From Rubripirellula tenax (GTDB lineage: Bacteria; Planctomycetota; Planctomycetia; Pirellulales; Pirellulaceae), in contig NZ_SJPW01000004.1 in assembly GCF_007860125.1 (NCBI RefSeq), positions 156,372 to 220,371 of the forward strand: a stretch of DNA of 64,000 nucleotides. The letters are read 5' to 3'. Below are positions 32,899 through 38,859 of this stretch, piece by piece. A model generated the notes under the pieces. The model saw only the letters and a program-made list of their open reading frames with translations, searched no databases and had not been told where the DNA came from. Each line of letters begins with the position of its first letter. Position 1 is the stretch's first letter. Position numbers and translations under genes: made by a program.

Positions 32899-35130
32899 TT
32901 ACTTCTTCTTTTCCAAGCCTTGATTGGTGATCAACGAGACTCCGAGGCCGGTGCGGAACTCGGGGTTGATGATCGACTCGGGAACATTCACGGTTGAGAA
33001 GAAACCGATATCGGGTGCCTGAGCTTCATCGACCTTCCGCTGCAATGATTCACCCTCAGCGATCCGGACCACCGGCGGCACACCACTGCTCGATCGTCCG
33101 CGCCACGCCGGTTGACCGTCGATGGTAAGTTCGATCGTTGATAGATACGGTTGAACGGATGCTGATTGAACCGGCGCGGCCGGGGTCTCGGGTTGCCCGC
33201 CGTATGGCGACGAGCCGCCGAATCCCGGTGGTCTTCCGAACCCCGGCGGTGGACCAAAACCGGGTCGCGGACCGAATCCGGGTGGACGCATCCCCGACGG
33301 GCCACCGAATCCCGACATCGGGGAAGAGCCGAATTGATAACGCACGGTTTGCGATGGCCCTCGTTTTAATTTAGCGGACAACACGTTTTTCGACGCATTG
33401 TCGATCGTCCAACCGTTCCTTTCCGCTTGATCGACCAAGGCAGTTTGAATCTGGTCACTGTTTTCAATCGCTTGGACATCGATACGCACTGAATCACCGC
33501 GATCAAAAACGATCAGCTCGTCGCGTTTCAAATACTTGACGTAACCGGCCGCATCGTCCCCCGGAAGTCTGACCGCACCAACGCCAACGCCCGTTTTGGT
33601 GCGACCGGCATGAATGCCTCGTTCGACTCTTGACTGGGCGGACGCAGCGTAGATCAAGTGACCGTCGACCGTCCGGCGCACCCGGTCGTCACCGACGCTC
33701 CGGGTCGAAACCCCATCGTCGAATTCGTATCGCCAAAGCGGAATGCCGCGTTCCAGACTGAACAACAGCATCTCGTTGCCGGTCGTCGACAAGCAGACGA
33801 CGTCGCTATCGAGCCAATGAACCGTGGTTGTCGTCGGCAAATCCATAAATCCAACATCGACGGATCGCTGTTCGCTTTGGCCAGTGATGTCAACGGCCAG
33901 CAGACTGCTGTCCAACAATATCAAGACGTGCTTGCCATCATCGGCGATGGCGAGCGAACGAATCTCGCCTTCACATTTCACGGTTGAAAGTTCGGTGCCG
34001 GCAATCGGGTCAACTATTCGAAGACTTCCCGATTCGGGAATCAACAGATAGCGTCGCCCCGGTGACAACTCGGGCGTCGGCGCTTGGGCCGACTGTTGTG
34101 TCGCGGTCCAAATCGCTTTTCGTTCGGCCGCGTTCCAGGCAACCAATCTACGTTGCGAGTCGCGAAAAATGACGACTCGATCACTGGCAAACCGCGCCCA
34201 GCTTCCGTCGCCGCTGCCGTAGTGAGCTTTCGAGGCCACGTCGGAACCATACCAACTGATCTTCTGTTCGGCCTGGGGCATCGACGGCGAACTCTTCCAA
34301 AGCGTCAAGATCGGCTTGTCCGTTCCCGCGTCATAGGTCAACGCCATCTGCGACGGCGCGTGGTAATCCTTCAATTGGATCGCGGGCGGCAGCGGATGCA
34401 TTTGAGTCATCTGCGCCTTGCGGATCGAAACCCACATCAAACGCGTCGGCATTTTGTCTTTCACTGACGAGAACGTATTTTCGAGTGACGCCAGCAACCA
34501 CTGGTCCGAGCCGCCCAGCGGAATGATCGCACCGACTTTGTCAAAGAAGTTGCCGACCTCGAACGCTGCACCGCCTTCGGCGAGCTGCATCGAAGTTCTT
34601 AGCGGGTCGGCAGCAATTGACGCGGATACCGAACCGGATTCGGCAATCTCCGTTGCCGTCGACAAATCCATTTCGACGACGCTGCCACGATGAGCCCCCG
34701 GCGCCGTTGGCGCAACCGCACCTAACTTTTTCGCGAACGCTTGATCGACGGTAGACAATCGCTCGAGGGGCACCGTGATCTCTTTGCCCAATTCCGTCCT
34801 CAGCGTCAATTCAGTCGCTGTGACGCGGATCGGCGCGGCGATGACCGAGAACTCTCCTTCGCCTGCTTTCCAAACGCGAGCGTGTGCCAGGGCATCTTTC
34901 TCGTACTCTCGGCGAACCGCGTTGACACCGAACCATCCCTCTTTCAACGAAATGAATGTGTACTGGCAATAAATGCCTTTTCGACGATCCGTGTTCAACA
35001 CGCGGGCCGGCCGCCATTTGCTCAGATAGTAGACTTCGACTTCTTCACCCGGTTCAAACGGCAGATCGGCTCGAATCGCAATCGATGTACCGAAGAAGAC
35101 GAAAACGGAAACGATCAATACCCGAAACAT
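32899..35130 (-). CDS. Secreted SHD1-domain protein with beta-propeller-like core
   Basis: 743 residues, started at MFRVLIVSVFVFFGTS, which gives a good signal peptide (cleavage after about residue 20). An SH3-like segment (PGEEVEVYYLSKWRPARV) is followed by an SHD1 domain (ARVWKAGEGEFSVIAAPIRV, then KEITVPLERLSTVDQAF), typical of Planctomycete exported proteins. The middle 400 residues have repeated strands of a WD40/PQQ-like propeller (YLLIPESGSLRIVDP, SLAIADDGKHVLILLDSSLL, VVCLSTTGNEMLLFSLERG). A Gly/Pro/Phe-rich region (about residues 603-650) precedes the final domain. Function unknown; periplasmic or surface location expected. Convergent with polA and divergent from the AAA+ gene. Confidence 0.75.
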   Translation of the reverse strand: MFRVLIVSVFVFFGTSIAIRADLPFEPGEEVEVYYLSKWRPARVLNTDRRKGIYCQYTFISLKEGWFGVNAVRREYEKDALAHARVWKAGEGEFSVIAAPIRVTATELTLRTELGKEITVPLERLSTVDQAFAKKLGAVAPTAPGAHRGSVVEMDLSTATEIAESGSVSASIAADPLRTSMQLAEGGAAFEVGNFFDKVGAIIPLGGSDQWLLASLENTFSSVKDKMPTRLMWVSIRKAQMTQMHPLPPAIQLKDYHAPSQMALTYDAGTDKPILTLWKSSPSMPQAEQKISWYGSDVASKAHYGSGDGSWARFASDRVVIFRDSQRRLVAWNAAERKAIWTATQQSAQAPTPELSPGRRYLLIPESGSLRIVDPIAGTELSTVKCEGEIRSLAIADDGKHVLILLDSSLLAVDITGQSEQRSVDVGFMDLPTTTTVHWLDSDVVCLSTTGNEMLLFSLERGIPLWRYEFDDGVSTRSVGDDRVRRTVDGHLIYAASAQSRVERGIHAGRTKTGVGVGAVRLPGDDAAGYVKYLKRDELIVFDRGDSVRIDVQAIENSDQIQTALVDQAERNGWTIDNASKNVLSAKLKRGPSQTVRYQFGSSPMSGFGGPSGMRPPGFGPRPGFGPPPGFGRPPGFGGSSPYGGQPETPAAPVQSASVQPYLSTIELTIDGQPAWRGRSSSGVPPVVRIAEGESLQRKVDEAQAPDIGFFSTVNVPESIINPEFRTGLGVSLITNQGLEKKK

Positions 35131-35302
35131 GGGACCAAGAGTTCGTGGAGAAAATTGCGAGACCGCCCACCGCTGGGTGAAAAACATGCGTTGTTACGGA
35201 TCTGTACCAATCTTAGTAGCAAACCTGACAGGAAAAAACGCGGTAAACTAAGATCCCTTCGAATCCATCTTCTTTTTCTTCCCCGTTCTAGGGAAACCCA
35301 CC

Positions 35303-37375
35303 GTGCCACCGAGCGATTGGAATTGGTTGCCCACGCCACGGTCCGAAATTCTACCGGTCATTTCGGAATCGCTTCGGCAACGGTTCGTTTATGCCGATGA
35401 GATTGCGGACCTTTTATCAGCCGCTTTCTATGAACCTTGCAATTTATTGTTGTGGGGACCGGGTGGGCACGGCAAGAGCGAAATGGTGGTCACGGCGCTG
35501 AAGGCACTCGGCTTGTCGGACGATGAAATCTTCATTCAATCGTTCGGCGAGGGAATGAGCGAAGACCGGTTGTGGGGCGGCCCCGACATGGCTTCGCTCG
35601 ACACGTGCTTGCGGTACGACACTTCCCGTTCATTCTTGGCACCTCAGTATCGTGCGGTCATCTTTGAAGAGATCTTTGACGCACCGGCTCAATCGCTGTT
35701 GCCGCTCAAAGATGTTTTGACGCGGCGGATCTTCATCAACGGTGCCGAACGCGTTGCCATGAAGGCGAAGGTCGTCATCGCATGCACGAACAAGGACCCT
35801 CGTGAATTTAGCGACGGCAATGACGCGATCCTGGCGTTGATGGAAAGGTTTTTATTGCAAAAAGAGGTTCGTTGGCCCGCCTATGAAGCAAAGAACTATG
35901 CCGAGCTGTTCGCAAAAATTCGGCCAACCGCATCGGAAGGAGGGCGTGAACTGCACCAGCGATTAGCGGCTGTGATCGCGGGACTGAACGAAACAAAGAC
36001 GTTTGTGATGTCGCCGCGGATGGCGATTCAGGCACTGGAAGTCGTCACGCGCAGCGCACGGATTCGCGGCGATGATCGCGTTACCGGCCCCGCGTTCCAC
36101 AACATTCGGTTTGTCCAAGGAATGCAGTCCTACACCGCGGACTTGGATCGCAAGATCGATCGCCACCTGCCCGACGATACCAACTTTCGAATTCAATTGG
36201 ACGACGGTGACTTTTCGTCCGTTGGTGATGGGCCGCTGCGGAAGACTCGCCGCGAGATTCCAAAGCTGATCGCGTCGGCGCTGCAACCGAATTTTATCCA
36301 TTGCGACGAAATTGTCCGCGTGTTGACGCTGGCTTTCGTACAGCCTTGCAATGTGCTGTTATGGGGACCGGGCGGCCATGGCAAGAGCGAGATGGTGATG
36401 GCGGCCCTTCGTGTGATGGGATACGACGACGAAGAAATTTTTCTGCAATCGTTCGGCGAAGGCATGAGCGAGGATCGGCTCTGGGGCGGCCCCAACATTG
36501 CCAAACTGGACGTTTGTTTGGAATACGATACTGACCGATCATTTCTGCCTCACGAAGTTGTCGTGCTGGAAGAAATTCTCGACGCTTCGTCCCAGGCTCT
36601 CTTGCCGTTGAAGGACGTTCTTACCCGTAAGTCGTTCATGAACGGCAATAACGCGGTGCCGATGAAGTCCAAGGCGATCATCGCATGTACGAACAAAGAT
36701 CCGCGGCAATACGCCAAGGACAGCGACGCGGTGAAAGCGCTTTTGGAAAGATTTCCTCTGCAACTGGAAGTGCGTTGGCCCTCTTACGAACAATCCGACT
36801 ACGAGGGGCTGTTCCATAAAGCCAACCCGACCGCCAGCGCCGATAAGCGCAAGCTGCATCGAATCTATGCGCACGTCATCGCCAATTTGAACGAAGACCG
36901 CGAAACGGGATTTCACGTCTCGCCGCGAATTGCGCTGGGCGGATTGCGTTTGGCGGGCAATAGCGTCGGTCGGCATGGCCGCAAGAAGATGATTGTCGAA
37001 GACATTTTGACGATCCGAAATGTTCAGGGAATGGAATCCTACAAGCGCGACGTCGAAGGACTGATCCGATCGGCGTTGCTAGAAGGCGGTGTCGAAGTCT
37101 TGCTCAGCGACATTGACGAACGGGCCGAGCGACTGCGAGGAAAGATGGATGACGTCGACAAAATTTTCGCGGCCGGTCGAGGGTTAGACGCCGCGCAGCG
37201 AGGCGAGGTGAATGATGAAGCGATCGCGGCGATGTTGGAATTGATGTCCAGCATTGATCGATTGCAGCATGAGTTGAACTACTTGCAGATATCCGATCCG
37301 AAGCTGCTGGCGTGGCAAAAGGTTTCAGCGGCTCGCGTCGCTGAGATCGCGGCCGAAATCGAGGCGGGAACGTAG
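35303..37375 (+). CDS. Tandem AAA+ (MoxR-like) ATPase
   Basis: 690 residues, GTG start with GGGA upstream. Two related AAA+ modules in one chain: Walker A GPGGHGKSEM occurs near residues 53 and 355, Walker B regions are AVIFEEIFDA (about 118) and VVVLEEILDA (about 419), and each is followed by LLPLKDVLTR and ACTNKDPR (sensor 1). Both copies share QSFGEGMSEDRLWGGP, which suggests an internal duplication. The Walker B Asp is Glu in both copies. A C-terminal helical segment of about 90 residues closes the protein. MoxR-type ATPases work with VWA-domain partners as chaperones or metal-insertion factors; the next gene, 5 bp downstream, encodes one. Substrate unknown. Confidence 0.85.
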   Translation: MPPSDWNWLPTPRSEILPVISESLRQRFVYADEIADLLSAAFYEPCNLLLWGPGGHGKSEMVVTALKALGLSDDEIFIQSFGEGMSEDRLWGGPDMASLDTCLRYDTSRSFLAPQYRAVIFEEIFDAPAQSLLPLKDVLTRRIFINGAERVAMKAKVVIACTNKDPREFSDGNDAILALMERFLLQKEVRWPAYEAKNYAELFAKIRPTASEGGRELHQRLAAVIAGLNETKTFVMSPRMAIQALEVVTRSARIRGDDRVTGPAFHNIRFVQGMQSYTADLDRKIDRHLPDDTNFRIQLDDGDFSSVGDGPLRKTRREIPKLIASALQPNFIHCDEIVRVLTLAFVQPCNVLLWGPGGHGKSEMVMAALRVMGYDDEEIFLQSFGEGMSEDRLWGGPNIAKLDVCLEYDTDRSFLPHEVVVLEEILDASSQALLPLKDVLTRKSFMNGNNAVPMKSKAIIACTNKDPRQYAKDSDAVKALLERFPLQLEVRWPSYEQSDYEGLFHKANPTASADKRKLHRIYAHVIANLNEDRETGFHVSPRIALGGLRLAGNSVGRHGRKKMIVEDILTIRNVQGMESYKRDVEGLIRSALLEGGVEVLLSDIDERAERLRGKMDDVDKIFAAGRGLDAAQRGEVNDEAIAAMLELMSSIDRLQHELNYLQISDPKLLAWQKVSAARVAEIAAEIEAGT

Positions 37376-37380
37376 ATTCA

Positions 37381-38859
37381 GTGTCGCAAACCAAAATCGA
37401 ACGACGTCTTCGCGACTTCATCCGCTTTCACACTCACGTGACGCTGCCGGAAACCAGCGAGCGTCGCCAGCAAATCAATACCAACGAAGTCGTGCGGAAA
37501 CTCGACGCGATCGGGATGCACCACTTGCCCTTGCCGATCATTTGGGACGGCGTGCATTTAATCGACGAAGGAAAAGTCGCCAGCAAAACCGAGATCGCAC
37601 GTCGGACTCGGTTGACGTACCGCATGCGGATGTGGCCGATCGCTCGGTGGCTTGACGACTATTTGGATTGGTCGGTGCGTGACGCCGACATGTACTATCA
37701 GTTGGCATCGCTGCTTCGCGATGTCGAATTCGTTCGAATCAAGGGCCGCACCGACATCGATCGGGCGATCGCGAATGTCGCAGTGATCGCGACGGCCAAG
37801 CGTTCGCTGGTCGTTGGCATCCCGCCCGAGAAAGTTAGCGAACAGATCAATTGGGCGCTCGCCGAGGTCGGCGGACTCGAAGCCGACGAGATCGAATTGC
37901 TAGAGTGTTTGCCGGACGAACGGATGCTCAAACCCACCGACAAAATCGATCCCGACCAAATGGCGAGGGATCGTGGCGTCACGTCGATCCAGTTGATCGA
38001 AACGATCGACACCCGAGGTCGGATCGCATCGCTGTTTAGCGAGTGTTTCGGCGGCATGCGCAAGGTAACGTCCGAAAAAGAAATTCATCCGCTTTCCGTC
38101 CGTCGATTGAATGTCGCATCACGAATGCTGGCCGAACCCAGCTTGGAAGCGCTGATGCGGATCTCGCGTGTCGCCAATGAATACGTCGCGTTTCAGCCGC
38201 GGTTCGAAAAGAAGATGATCCCCGCGGCCGACGGCGATCAAACTCGCATGCGGATGATGCAGTCGTTCGACGAACTTCCGCGAATGGCGCCGGCGGCGTG
38301 GGCCATCAAAGTGGCGTCGTCCAAGTATTTTCGCTATCGATTGGCGACCAAGAGTTTCATGGTCCGCGAGAAGATCAAACGCAGCGATAAAAAGCAGTTA
38401 TTTTACGCGATGCTGGATCGAAGTAAATCGATGCAACAGGGCGAACGAATCTACAAATTGCTGGCGATCTTGATGAACCGACTTCGCGCGGTCGGGCGTC
38501 GTGAAGCCGTCTTGGGTTACAGTTTTTTTGATTCCATGGTTCACGACGAAATTTTGGTCAACGAGGTAGCTGAGGTTCGCGAAGAGATTCGTAAGCTGAA
38601 CTACGAATTCTTTATCGGCGACGACACGGACATCAACTTGGCACTTCGCGAGGGCGTCAAGCGGATTCGGCAGTTGGTGACCGACATCGATGCAGAACGA
38701 CCCGAGTTGATCATCGTGACCGACGGTGATCACGGTATCAATGTGCAAGTCAAAGAGCTGAAGGGCATCGTGCTTCACGTTTTCATCGTCGAAGAAGCCA
38801 ACGACGATCTGATGAAGCTGGCCATCGCGACCGGCGGTGTCGCGTTGCAAGGGCTTTGA
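37381..38859 (+). CDS. VWA-domain protein, partner of the AAA+ ATPase
   Basis: 492 residues, GTG start 5 bp after the AAA+ gene stop. The C-terminal 170 residues form a von Willebrand A domain: MIDAS motif Asp346-x-Ser348-x-Ser350 in MLDRSKSM, a conserved Thr in FIGDDTDINLAL, and the third metal site in IIVTDGDHGI. The N-terminal 330 residues are helical and unique (RRLRDFIRFHTHVTLPETSE, KRSLVVGIPPEKVSEQINWA). No signal peptide, so it is cytoplasmic, like ViaA/CoxE-type partners of MoxR ATPases. The pair presumably works as one machine. Convergent with the helicase gene. Confidence 0.85.
   Translation: MSQTKIERRLRDFIRFHTHVTLPETSERRQQINTNEVVRKLDAIGMHHLPLPIIWDGVHLIDEGKVASKTEIARRTRLTYRMRMWPIARWLDDYLDWSVRDADMYYQLASLLRDVEFVRIKGRTDIDRAIANVAVIATAKRSLVVGIPPEKVSEQINWALAEVGGLEADEIELLECLPDERMLKPTDKIDPDQMARDRGVTSIQLIETIDTRGRIASLFSECFGGMRKVTSEKEIHPLSVRRLNVASRMLAEPSLEALMRISRVANEYVAFQPRFEKKMIPAADGDQTRMRMMQSFDELPRMAPAAWAIKVASSKYFRYRLATKSFMVREKIKRSDKKQLFYAMLDRSKSMQQGERIYKLLAILMNRLRAVGRREAVLGYSFFDSMVHDEILVNEVAEVREEIRKLNYEFFIGDDTDINLALREGVKRIRQLVTDIDAERPELIIVTDGDHGINVQVKELKGIVLHVFIVEEANDDLMKLAIATGGVALQGL

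Follow-up and report, generated by a model that had tools for sequence, protein, structure and literature searches.

MoxR-type AAA+ ATPases are known to work in pairs with proteins carrying a von Willebrand factor A (VWA) domain. In NorQ/NorD and CbbQ/CbbO, an ATPase with a single AAA+ domain per chain, interrupted by a helix-2 insert, has as its partner a protein whose C-terminal VWA domain bears a metal-ion-dependent adhesion site (MIDAS), and the clients are known, being nitric oxide reductase for NorQ/NorD and rubisco for CbbQ/CbbO. RavA and ViaA likewise form a MoxR/VWA pair, in which RavA has a single AAA+ domain. A finger of NorD (residues 403–448, N-terminal to the MIDAS residues) is described in PMC13036017 as entering the NorQ pore and being required for iron insertion, and the NorD C terminus as binding the NorQ ring; a ratio of one NorD per NorQ hexamer is given in PMC9976466. 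Among tandem chains that have been set against MoxR, midasin (Rea1) and dynein hold six domains in one ring, according to PMC4047620. Here we analyse a two-gene locus in a 64,000-nucleotide stretch of the planctomycete Rubripirellula tenax (contig NZ_SJPW01000004.1; the whole stretch is hereafter referred to as the window), where gene A encodes two MoxR-type AAA+ domains in one chain and gene B encodes a VWA-domain partner (Table 1). We propose, with a probability of roughly 0.55, that the two proteins form a two-part ATP-driven MoxR/VWA remodelling machine, in which three double ATPases build a single pseudo-hexameric ring and this ring acts on the VWA adaptor.

The original prediction for this locus had placed both genes correctly, in their coordinates, their strands and the 5-bp gap between them (37376–37380). 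It had also described two nearly identical ATPase modules, and all four strings on which that description relied (GPGGHGKSEM, QSFGEGMSEDRLWGGP, LLPLKDVLTR and ACTNKDPR) do occur in both the N half and the C half. The exact catalytic motifs are thus common to the two modules, but the halves share just 54% identity and 71% similarity over 272 amino acids (E 3e-102, far beyond chance), so the repeat is real yet not near-identical. At Walker B both halves read FEE/LEE, in agreement with the predicted replacement of Asp by Glu, and this Glu is invariant in 14/14 double genes and in 15/15 rows of a family alignment comprising six halves from three doubles and nine single-domain relatives. Seven ordinary MoxR sequences aligned with them carry DE at Walker B and a P-loop of GPPGTAKS or GPPGTGKS. 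Because the single-domain homologues also carry Glu-Glu, the substitution is a hallmark of the family. Across 14/14 doubles, both halves retain Walker A, the Walker B catalytic Glu and the residues that we take to be the sensor-1 Asn, a conserved Arg that precedes strand 5 and the SPR of sensor 2. The helical C-terminal tail aligns with the tail of the single-domain homologues, and the N half lacks one.

Curated profiles give a mixed picture of gene A as a MoxR protein. Its best Pfam match is PF20030 (bpMoxR; 6.3e-33, 114 bits against a cut-off of 27), in two stretches, followed by PF07728 (1.2e-16, above cut-off), also in two stretches. Neither gene A nor gene B comes near any NCBIfam cut-off; the RavA equivalog scores 18.4 bits against a cut-off of 681, which upholds the earlier statement that the pair does not match RavA–ViaA in sequence. 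In a sequence search of solved structures, the sole matches of gene A were three RavA sequences (E 0.0059), and no CbbQ or NorQ chain appeared at E ≤0.1. Gene A is single-copy in its own genome; the same genome has 16 matches to AAA_3 (PF07726), 15 of them above cut-off and none at the position of the double gene.

Gene B matches PF13519 (VWA_2) at 2.3e-4 and 22.2 bits, under the curated cut-off of 27, and no solved structure better than E 0.19 in a sequence search. Its MIDAS is nevertheless intact, as had been predicted: D346-x-S348-x-S350, T416 and D448 are invariant in 14/14 aligned homologues. The long unique N-terminal domain attributed to this protein proves to be unique only in part. 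Residues 1–235 have no convincing counterpart in the VWA partners of single-domain ATPases (best E 0.23 in a profile search, with one weak stretch at about residues 149–209 in the reverse search, best domain E 0.014), but residues 236–335 match 12 of the 13 such partners supplied (E 5e-12 to 1e-6). This segment before the VWA domain has the lowest nonsynonymous substitution rate (dN) of the three segments of the protein in 3/3 comparisons. By description, NorQ/NorD and CbbQ/CbbO resemble the pair both in the helix-2 insert with a MIDAS-bearing C-terminal VWA partner and in having a conserved segment immediately before the VWA domain, and by analogy we consider the pre-VWA segment of gene B a candidate NorD-like finger.

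To place the two ATPase domains relative to each other, we used an AlphaFold2 model of the tandem chain (14 sequences; predicted local distance difference test (pLDDT) 72.5, predicted template modelling score (pTM) 0.66) and compared it with solved structures by Foldseek, considering the best 50 of 419 matches at E ≤0.001. Among these, the best two-domain fits were dynein AAA pairs (7mi3, 9dk0 and 7mgm), with a query TM-score (TMq) of 0.51–0.52 and a root-mean-square deviation (rmsd) of 7.6–9.4, and two RNF213 rows had a TMq of 0.47–0.48. The dynein-like fit favours domains lying side by side, hence three chains per ring, as far as a monomer prediction can indicate. Tandem AAA+ chains of such length often stack, and six double chains might instead form an N ring upon a C ring, like ClpA/ClpB or p97. 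ClpB, ClpA, ClpC, p97 and ATAD2 do turn up among the same 50 matches, but with a TMq of 0.20–0.26 and an rmsd of about 17–24, far from the values of the best dynein pairs, and midasin and dynein themselves keep their six domains in one ring, as noted above from PMC4047620. We therefore regard a stacked double ring as unlikely. The three-plus-three ring put forward in the original prediction is compatible with the monomer model, which lies nearer to neighbouring AAA domains within a ring than to stacked tandems.

Several points weigh against a single ring of three double chains working a VWA adaptor. Confidence in the tandem model is moderate (pLDDT 72.5 and pTM 0.66, from 14 close homologues), and a dynein-like placement of the domains may be no more than the default of the structure predictor. 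Over all dynein rows, TMq extends from 0.42 to 0.52 and some rmsd values reach 24–34, and the stacked targets are shorter (522–592 residues) than the tandem model. With Glu in place of Asp at Walker B, Mg binding or hydrolysis could be weaker. Finally, the assembly of G456, a genome with the single-domain form, lacks any match to the VWA gene.

In the machine that we favour, three double ATPases would line up side by side as a single pseudo-hexameric ring of alternating N and C domains, the in-plane placement of the two domains being the part that the moderate-confidence model suggests. One VWA protein would dock on this ring and probably insert its conserved pre-VWA segment into the pore, and its MIDAS would grip a client protein; ATP hydrolysis would then twist or pull the VWA protein, so that the client is remodelled or assembled. 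The finger in the pore, the 6:1 domain stoichiometry and the remodelling activity are inferred from NorQ/NorD, which, like CbbQ, has one ATPase domain per chain. Midasin and dynein would share with the R. tenax pair the side-by-side placement of AAA+ domains of one chain (here taken from the predicted model), and midasin also employs a MIDAS/VWA domain. However, midasin and dynein are eukaryotic chains of thousands of residues with six domains each, whereas the R. tenax system has two domains per chain and a separate VWA protein.

The two genes strictly co-occur in the genomes searched, which answers the co-conservation check proposed for them in the affirmative. Among 60 genomes, the full double gene is present in 14 (own genome included; 73–100% identity), namely 12 of the 22 genomes of the own genus and 2 of the 38 others, and the VWA gene occurs in exactly the same 14, with 45/60 genomes having neither. 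G007 has an ATPase fragment broken off at a contig end, and the other ATPase matches in these genomes are distant MoxR genes of 27–31% identity. The association has a Fisher P value of 8e-14, or 9e-13 with G007 counted as a mismatch, values to be read with the relatedness of the genomes in mind, as the units are not independent. The VWA gene adjoins the ATPase gene in 13 of the 15 loci examined; the exceptions are G007, at its contig end, and G027, in which the double ATPase and the VWA gene lie about 864 kb apart and both are retained.

The double form has a narrow distribution. In 392 planctomycete genomes drawn evenly over the phylum, the own genome was the sole match at E ≤1e-30 among the matches listed, with at most five candidates scored per genome. 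A scan of named genomes gave 21 loci, 12 of them doubles (in Rhodopirellula, Rubripirellula, strains K23_9 and CA13, and metagenome-assembled genomes (MAGs); one of the 12, L048, is a fragment) and nine of them single-domain homologues. The fused double was found in Rhodopirellula-group planctomycetes only. The earlier view that such a fusion of two MoxR domains, accompanied by a VWA protein, is uncommon is upheld. Titles and abstracts of the open-licence literature contained no description of the double form or of the single-domain family among the matches listed, and no homologue with a described function, in line with the original prediction.

Outside the planctomycetes, the commoner form, sparsely spread, is one ATPase domain with a VWA gene, often accompanied by a small third gene. 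The nine single-domain homologues are 39–46% identical to the window ATPase and come from genomes labelled Saccharibacteria, Parcubacteria, Kaiserbacteria, Magasanikbacteria, Doudnabacteria, Elusimicrobia and Thermoplasmata (a MAG), plus two other bacteria, and a homologous VWA gene lies directly downstream in 8/9 of these loci. In 379 genomes from the phylum of the Kaiserbacteria genome (G454), six had a match, three of them new, and all three new ones had the VWA gene, so that 11/12 single-domain genomes overall have the pair. At L057 (G457:C9:184637-185990) the VWA gene is split in two pieces and the genome has no small-gene match; at L077 the ATPase gene is in two pieces. The shared marks are a GPGGHGKS Walker A, with slight P-loop variation in L060 and L075–L078, and a Glu-Glu Walker B. 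By these motifs, the pairs from candidate phyla radiation (CPR) bacteria, Elusimicrobia, the Thermoplasmata MAG and viral contigs belong with the window pair to a distinct MoxR/VWA family; they differ from it in having one ATPase domain, mostly a small gene nearby and another VWA N-terminal region. The original prediction is corrected in that the family also includes unfused ATPases accompanied by a homologous VWA protein.

We next consider the origin of the fusion. The tree contained 35 rows, namely the separated halves of 8 of the 14 doubles, 14 single-domain proteins including three viral ones, and 5 of 10 outgroup rows, the remainder having been removed in advance. All N halves group together (97/83), as do all C halves (96/99), each set being a clade of its own, indicating that the duplication is older than the split of the three sampled genera; the N and C clades are joined just modestly (92/64), with long-branch warnings. 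The window C half is 51–52% identical to N halves versus 32–38% to single-domain proteins, which agrees with a duplication inside the lineage, and the retention of identical motifs family-wide gives no sign of a recent one. The ratio of nonsynonymous to synonymous rates (dN/dS) was 0.01–0.18 in 16 of 21 segment comparisons, those with a computable dS, with dS near or beyond saturation. As judged from these sequence comparisons, both genes are under purifying selection and the duplication is old.

The same alignments bear on whether the fusion matters mechanically. It could be neutral, the machine being an ordinary MoxR-type hexamer whose subunits were concatenated by chance, most of the work falling to one half: the C half is better conserved than the N half (187/275 versus 153/273 invariant columns) and is alone in keeping the helical tail. 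The catalytic motifs, however, are invariant in both halves of the 14 doubles, and their persistence since a duplication that predates the genera argues that neither half has decayed. We consequently give a neutral fusion a low probability.

The small third gene distinguishes the unfused systems. Encoding a protein of mostly 158–180 amino acids, it is no more than 800 bp from the pair in 9/12 single-domain genomes, five of these nine members having been included in the search profile, and somewhere in the genome in 10/12; it was found in 0/14 double-bearing genomes searched, so that the fused machine would need something else. In the CPR sample, it is present in 5/6 pair-bearing genomes and 12/373 pair-free genomes, and the latter rule out that it is exclusive to the pair. 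Four members scanned (L050, L051, L053 and L055) have no Pfam match. A confident predicted model (pLDDT 87.8) found nothing in the PDB at E ≤0.001 (best E 0.068), and HigB2 and toxin–antitoxin rows were weak among the matches listed, leaving the idea of an RNase toxin unsupported. The small protein may be a client or a regulator of the unfused machine. One region (G769:C3:99380-113912) has three copies of the small family in about 15 kb around one MoxR/VWA pair, and a second small conserved protein of 117–119 amino acids, without a Pfam match, is encoded upstream of two single-domain pairs (L054:4736-5095 and L050:3722-4075).

The pair also occurs on five IMG/VR contigs (L060, L061–L063 and L078, of which L061–L063 are near copies). 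On the four scanned (L060, L061, L062 and L078), its neighbours include Sak4-like, primase, DNA polymerase exonuclease and clamp-loader families, and L060 has the small gene too. These contigs, together with the proximity of the small gene to the pair in most single-domain genomes and a patchy spread (6/379 genomes of one CPR phylum and 1/392 of the evenly drawn planctomycetes), would suit an ancestral ATPase–VWA–small-protein cassette on viruses or mobile DNA, from which the planctomycete pair would have been domesticated or turned to defence, its client having changed. Yet PADLOC has no family matching the ATPase and gave one weak match for the VWA protein, at E 0.0099, which we do not believe, so a defence annotation was rejected. 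Cultured phages and plasmids gave no tblastn match, with the CPR and viral relatives, not the window proteins, as queries. Moreover, the window pair sits among housekeeping genes, the halves branch as under vertical inheritance at the level resolved, and the third gene is missing from 14/14 double-bearing genomes. We consider such a conflict- or phage-derived origin doubtful.

Membership in the MoxR–vWA–beta-propeller ternary conflict systems is highly improbable. PF20030, the closest Pfam profile for the ATPase domain, is that of their bpMoxR, such systems are reported from planctomycetes by Kaur et al. 2020 (PMC7159879), and the gene upstream of the pair (window 32899–35187, minus strand, between polA and the pair) has weak beta-propeller and SHD1 matches and, by eye, a signal-like N terminus. 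However, gene B ends at its VWA domain without a C-terminal propeller, both halves of gene A have the P-loop GPGGHGKS rather than the GXXXTAKS often found in those systems, no conserved propeller or TPR component was seen at the locus, and the propeller-like gene is on the opposite strand. A frame that looks polA-like by eye directly precedes the ATPase gene in L010 and L011, the two closest relatives, and leaves no space for a propeller gene; the propeller/SHD1 gene is for this reason rejected as a third component, and the defining features tested largely refute a ternary system of this type.

Apart from the pair, no gene family is common to all 11 double loci compared out of 12 retrieved (the partial L048 was omitted, and a TPR or propeller gene was looked for at the locus only). 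A divergent DUF58-family gene lies upstream in 8/11 (L037–L044, all with ATPases 79–81% identical to that of the window), at about 0.6–0.9 kb in seven and 2.6 kb in L037, followed in several loci by BatA or GATase/VWA-type genes. Outside this set, 6/6 genomes (the own one among them) have their best DUF58 match on a different contig or at a distance of over 1 Mb, and we thus judge the link with a DUF58–BatA cluster to be local synteny.

Table 1. Features of the double ATPase gene, its VWA partner and the small third gene; coordinates are window positions unless a locus is named.
Feature	Coordinates	Strand	Details
Gene A, double MoxR-type AAA+ ATPase	35303..37375	+	690 amino acids, GTG start; open reading frame and translation
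N-half AAA+ domain, residues 13-285	35339..36157	+	54% identity to C half; 153/273 columns invariant (14 doubles)
N-half Walker A GPGGHGKS, residues 52-59	35456..35479	+	invariant in 14 doubles
N-half Walker B Glu-Glu, residues 122-123	35666..35671	+	invariant in 14 doubles and 15 family rows
Inter-half linker, residues 286-315	36158..36247	+	5/30 columns invariant
C-half AAA+ domain, residues 316-590	36248..37072	+	187/275 columns invariant (14 doubles)
C-half Walker A GPGGHGKS, residues 355-362	36365..36388	+	invariant in 14 doubles
C-half Walker B Glu-Glu, residues 423-424	36569..36574	+	invariant in 14 doubles
Helical C-terminal tail, residues 591-690	37073..37372	+	one per double chain; helices in predicted model
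Gene B, VWA-domain partner, 492 amino acids	37381..38859	+	starts 5 bp past gene A
Gene B N-terminal region, residues 1-235	37381..38085	+	no convincing likeness to VWA partners of single-domain systems
Gene B conserved pre-VWA segment, residues 236-337	38086..38391	+	common to single-domain systems and two viral loci
Gene B VWA domain and MIDAS	38392..38856	+	DRSKS 38416-38430; T416; D448
Small third gene, members	L050:3160-3687, L053:3707-4228, L055:400-891, L054:4176-4655, L049:7421-7951, others		

Taken as a family history, these data tentatively suggest, at somewhat less than even odds, that a planctomycete lineage turned an ancestral single MoxR domain into a fused dimer and so went half of the way to the covalently linked AAA+ rings seen in midasin and dynein. 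Three such chains would make a ring of alternating, diverged sites round one VWA adaptor, and the single-domain cousins of CPR bacteria and viruses would go on forming ordinary rings, served by a small third protein that acts as regulator or client. The MoxR/VWA family with GPGGHGKS-like loops and a Glu-Glu Walker B extends through CPR bacteria, an archaeal MAG and viral contigs, and its recurrent small neighbour provides a first candidate for a client or regulator. Comprising both fused and unfused ATPases, each with a homologous VWA partner, this one MoxR family offers a natural experiment on the covalent linkage of ring subunits, a step that midasin and dynein have completed.

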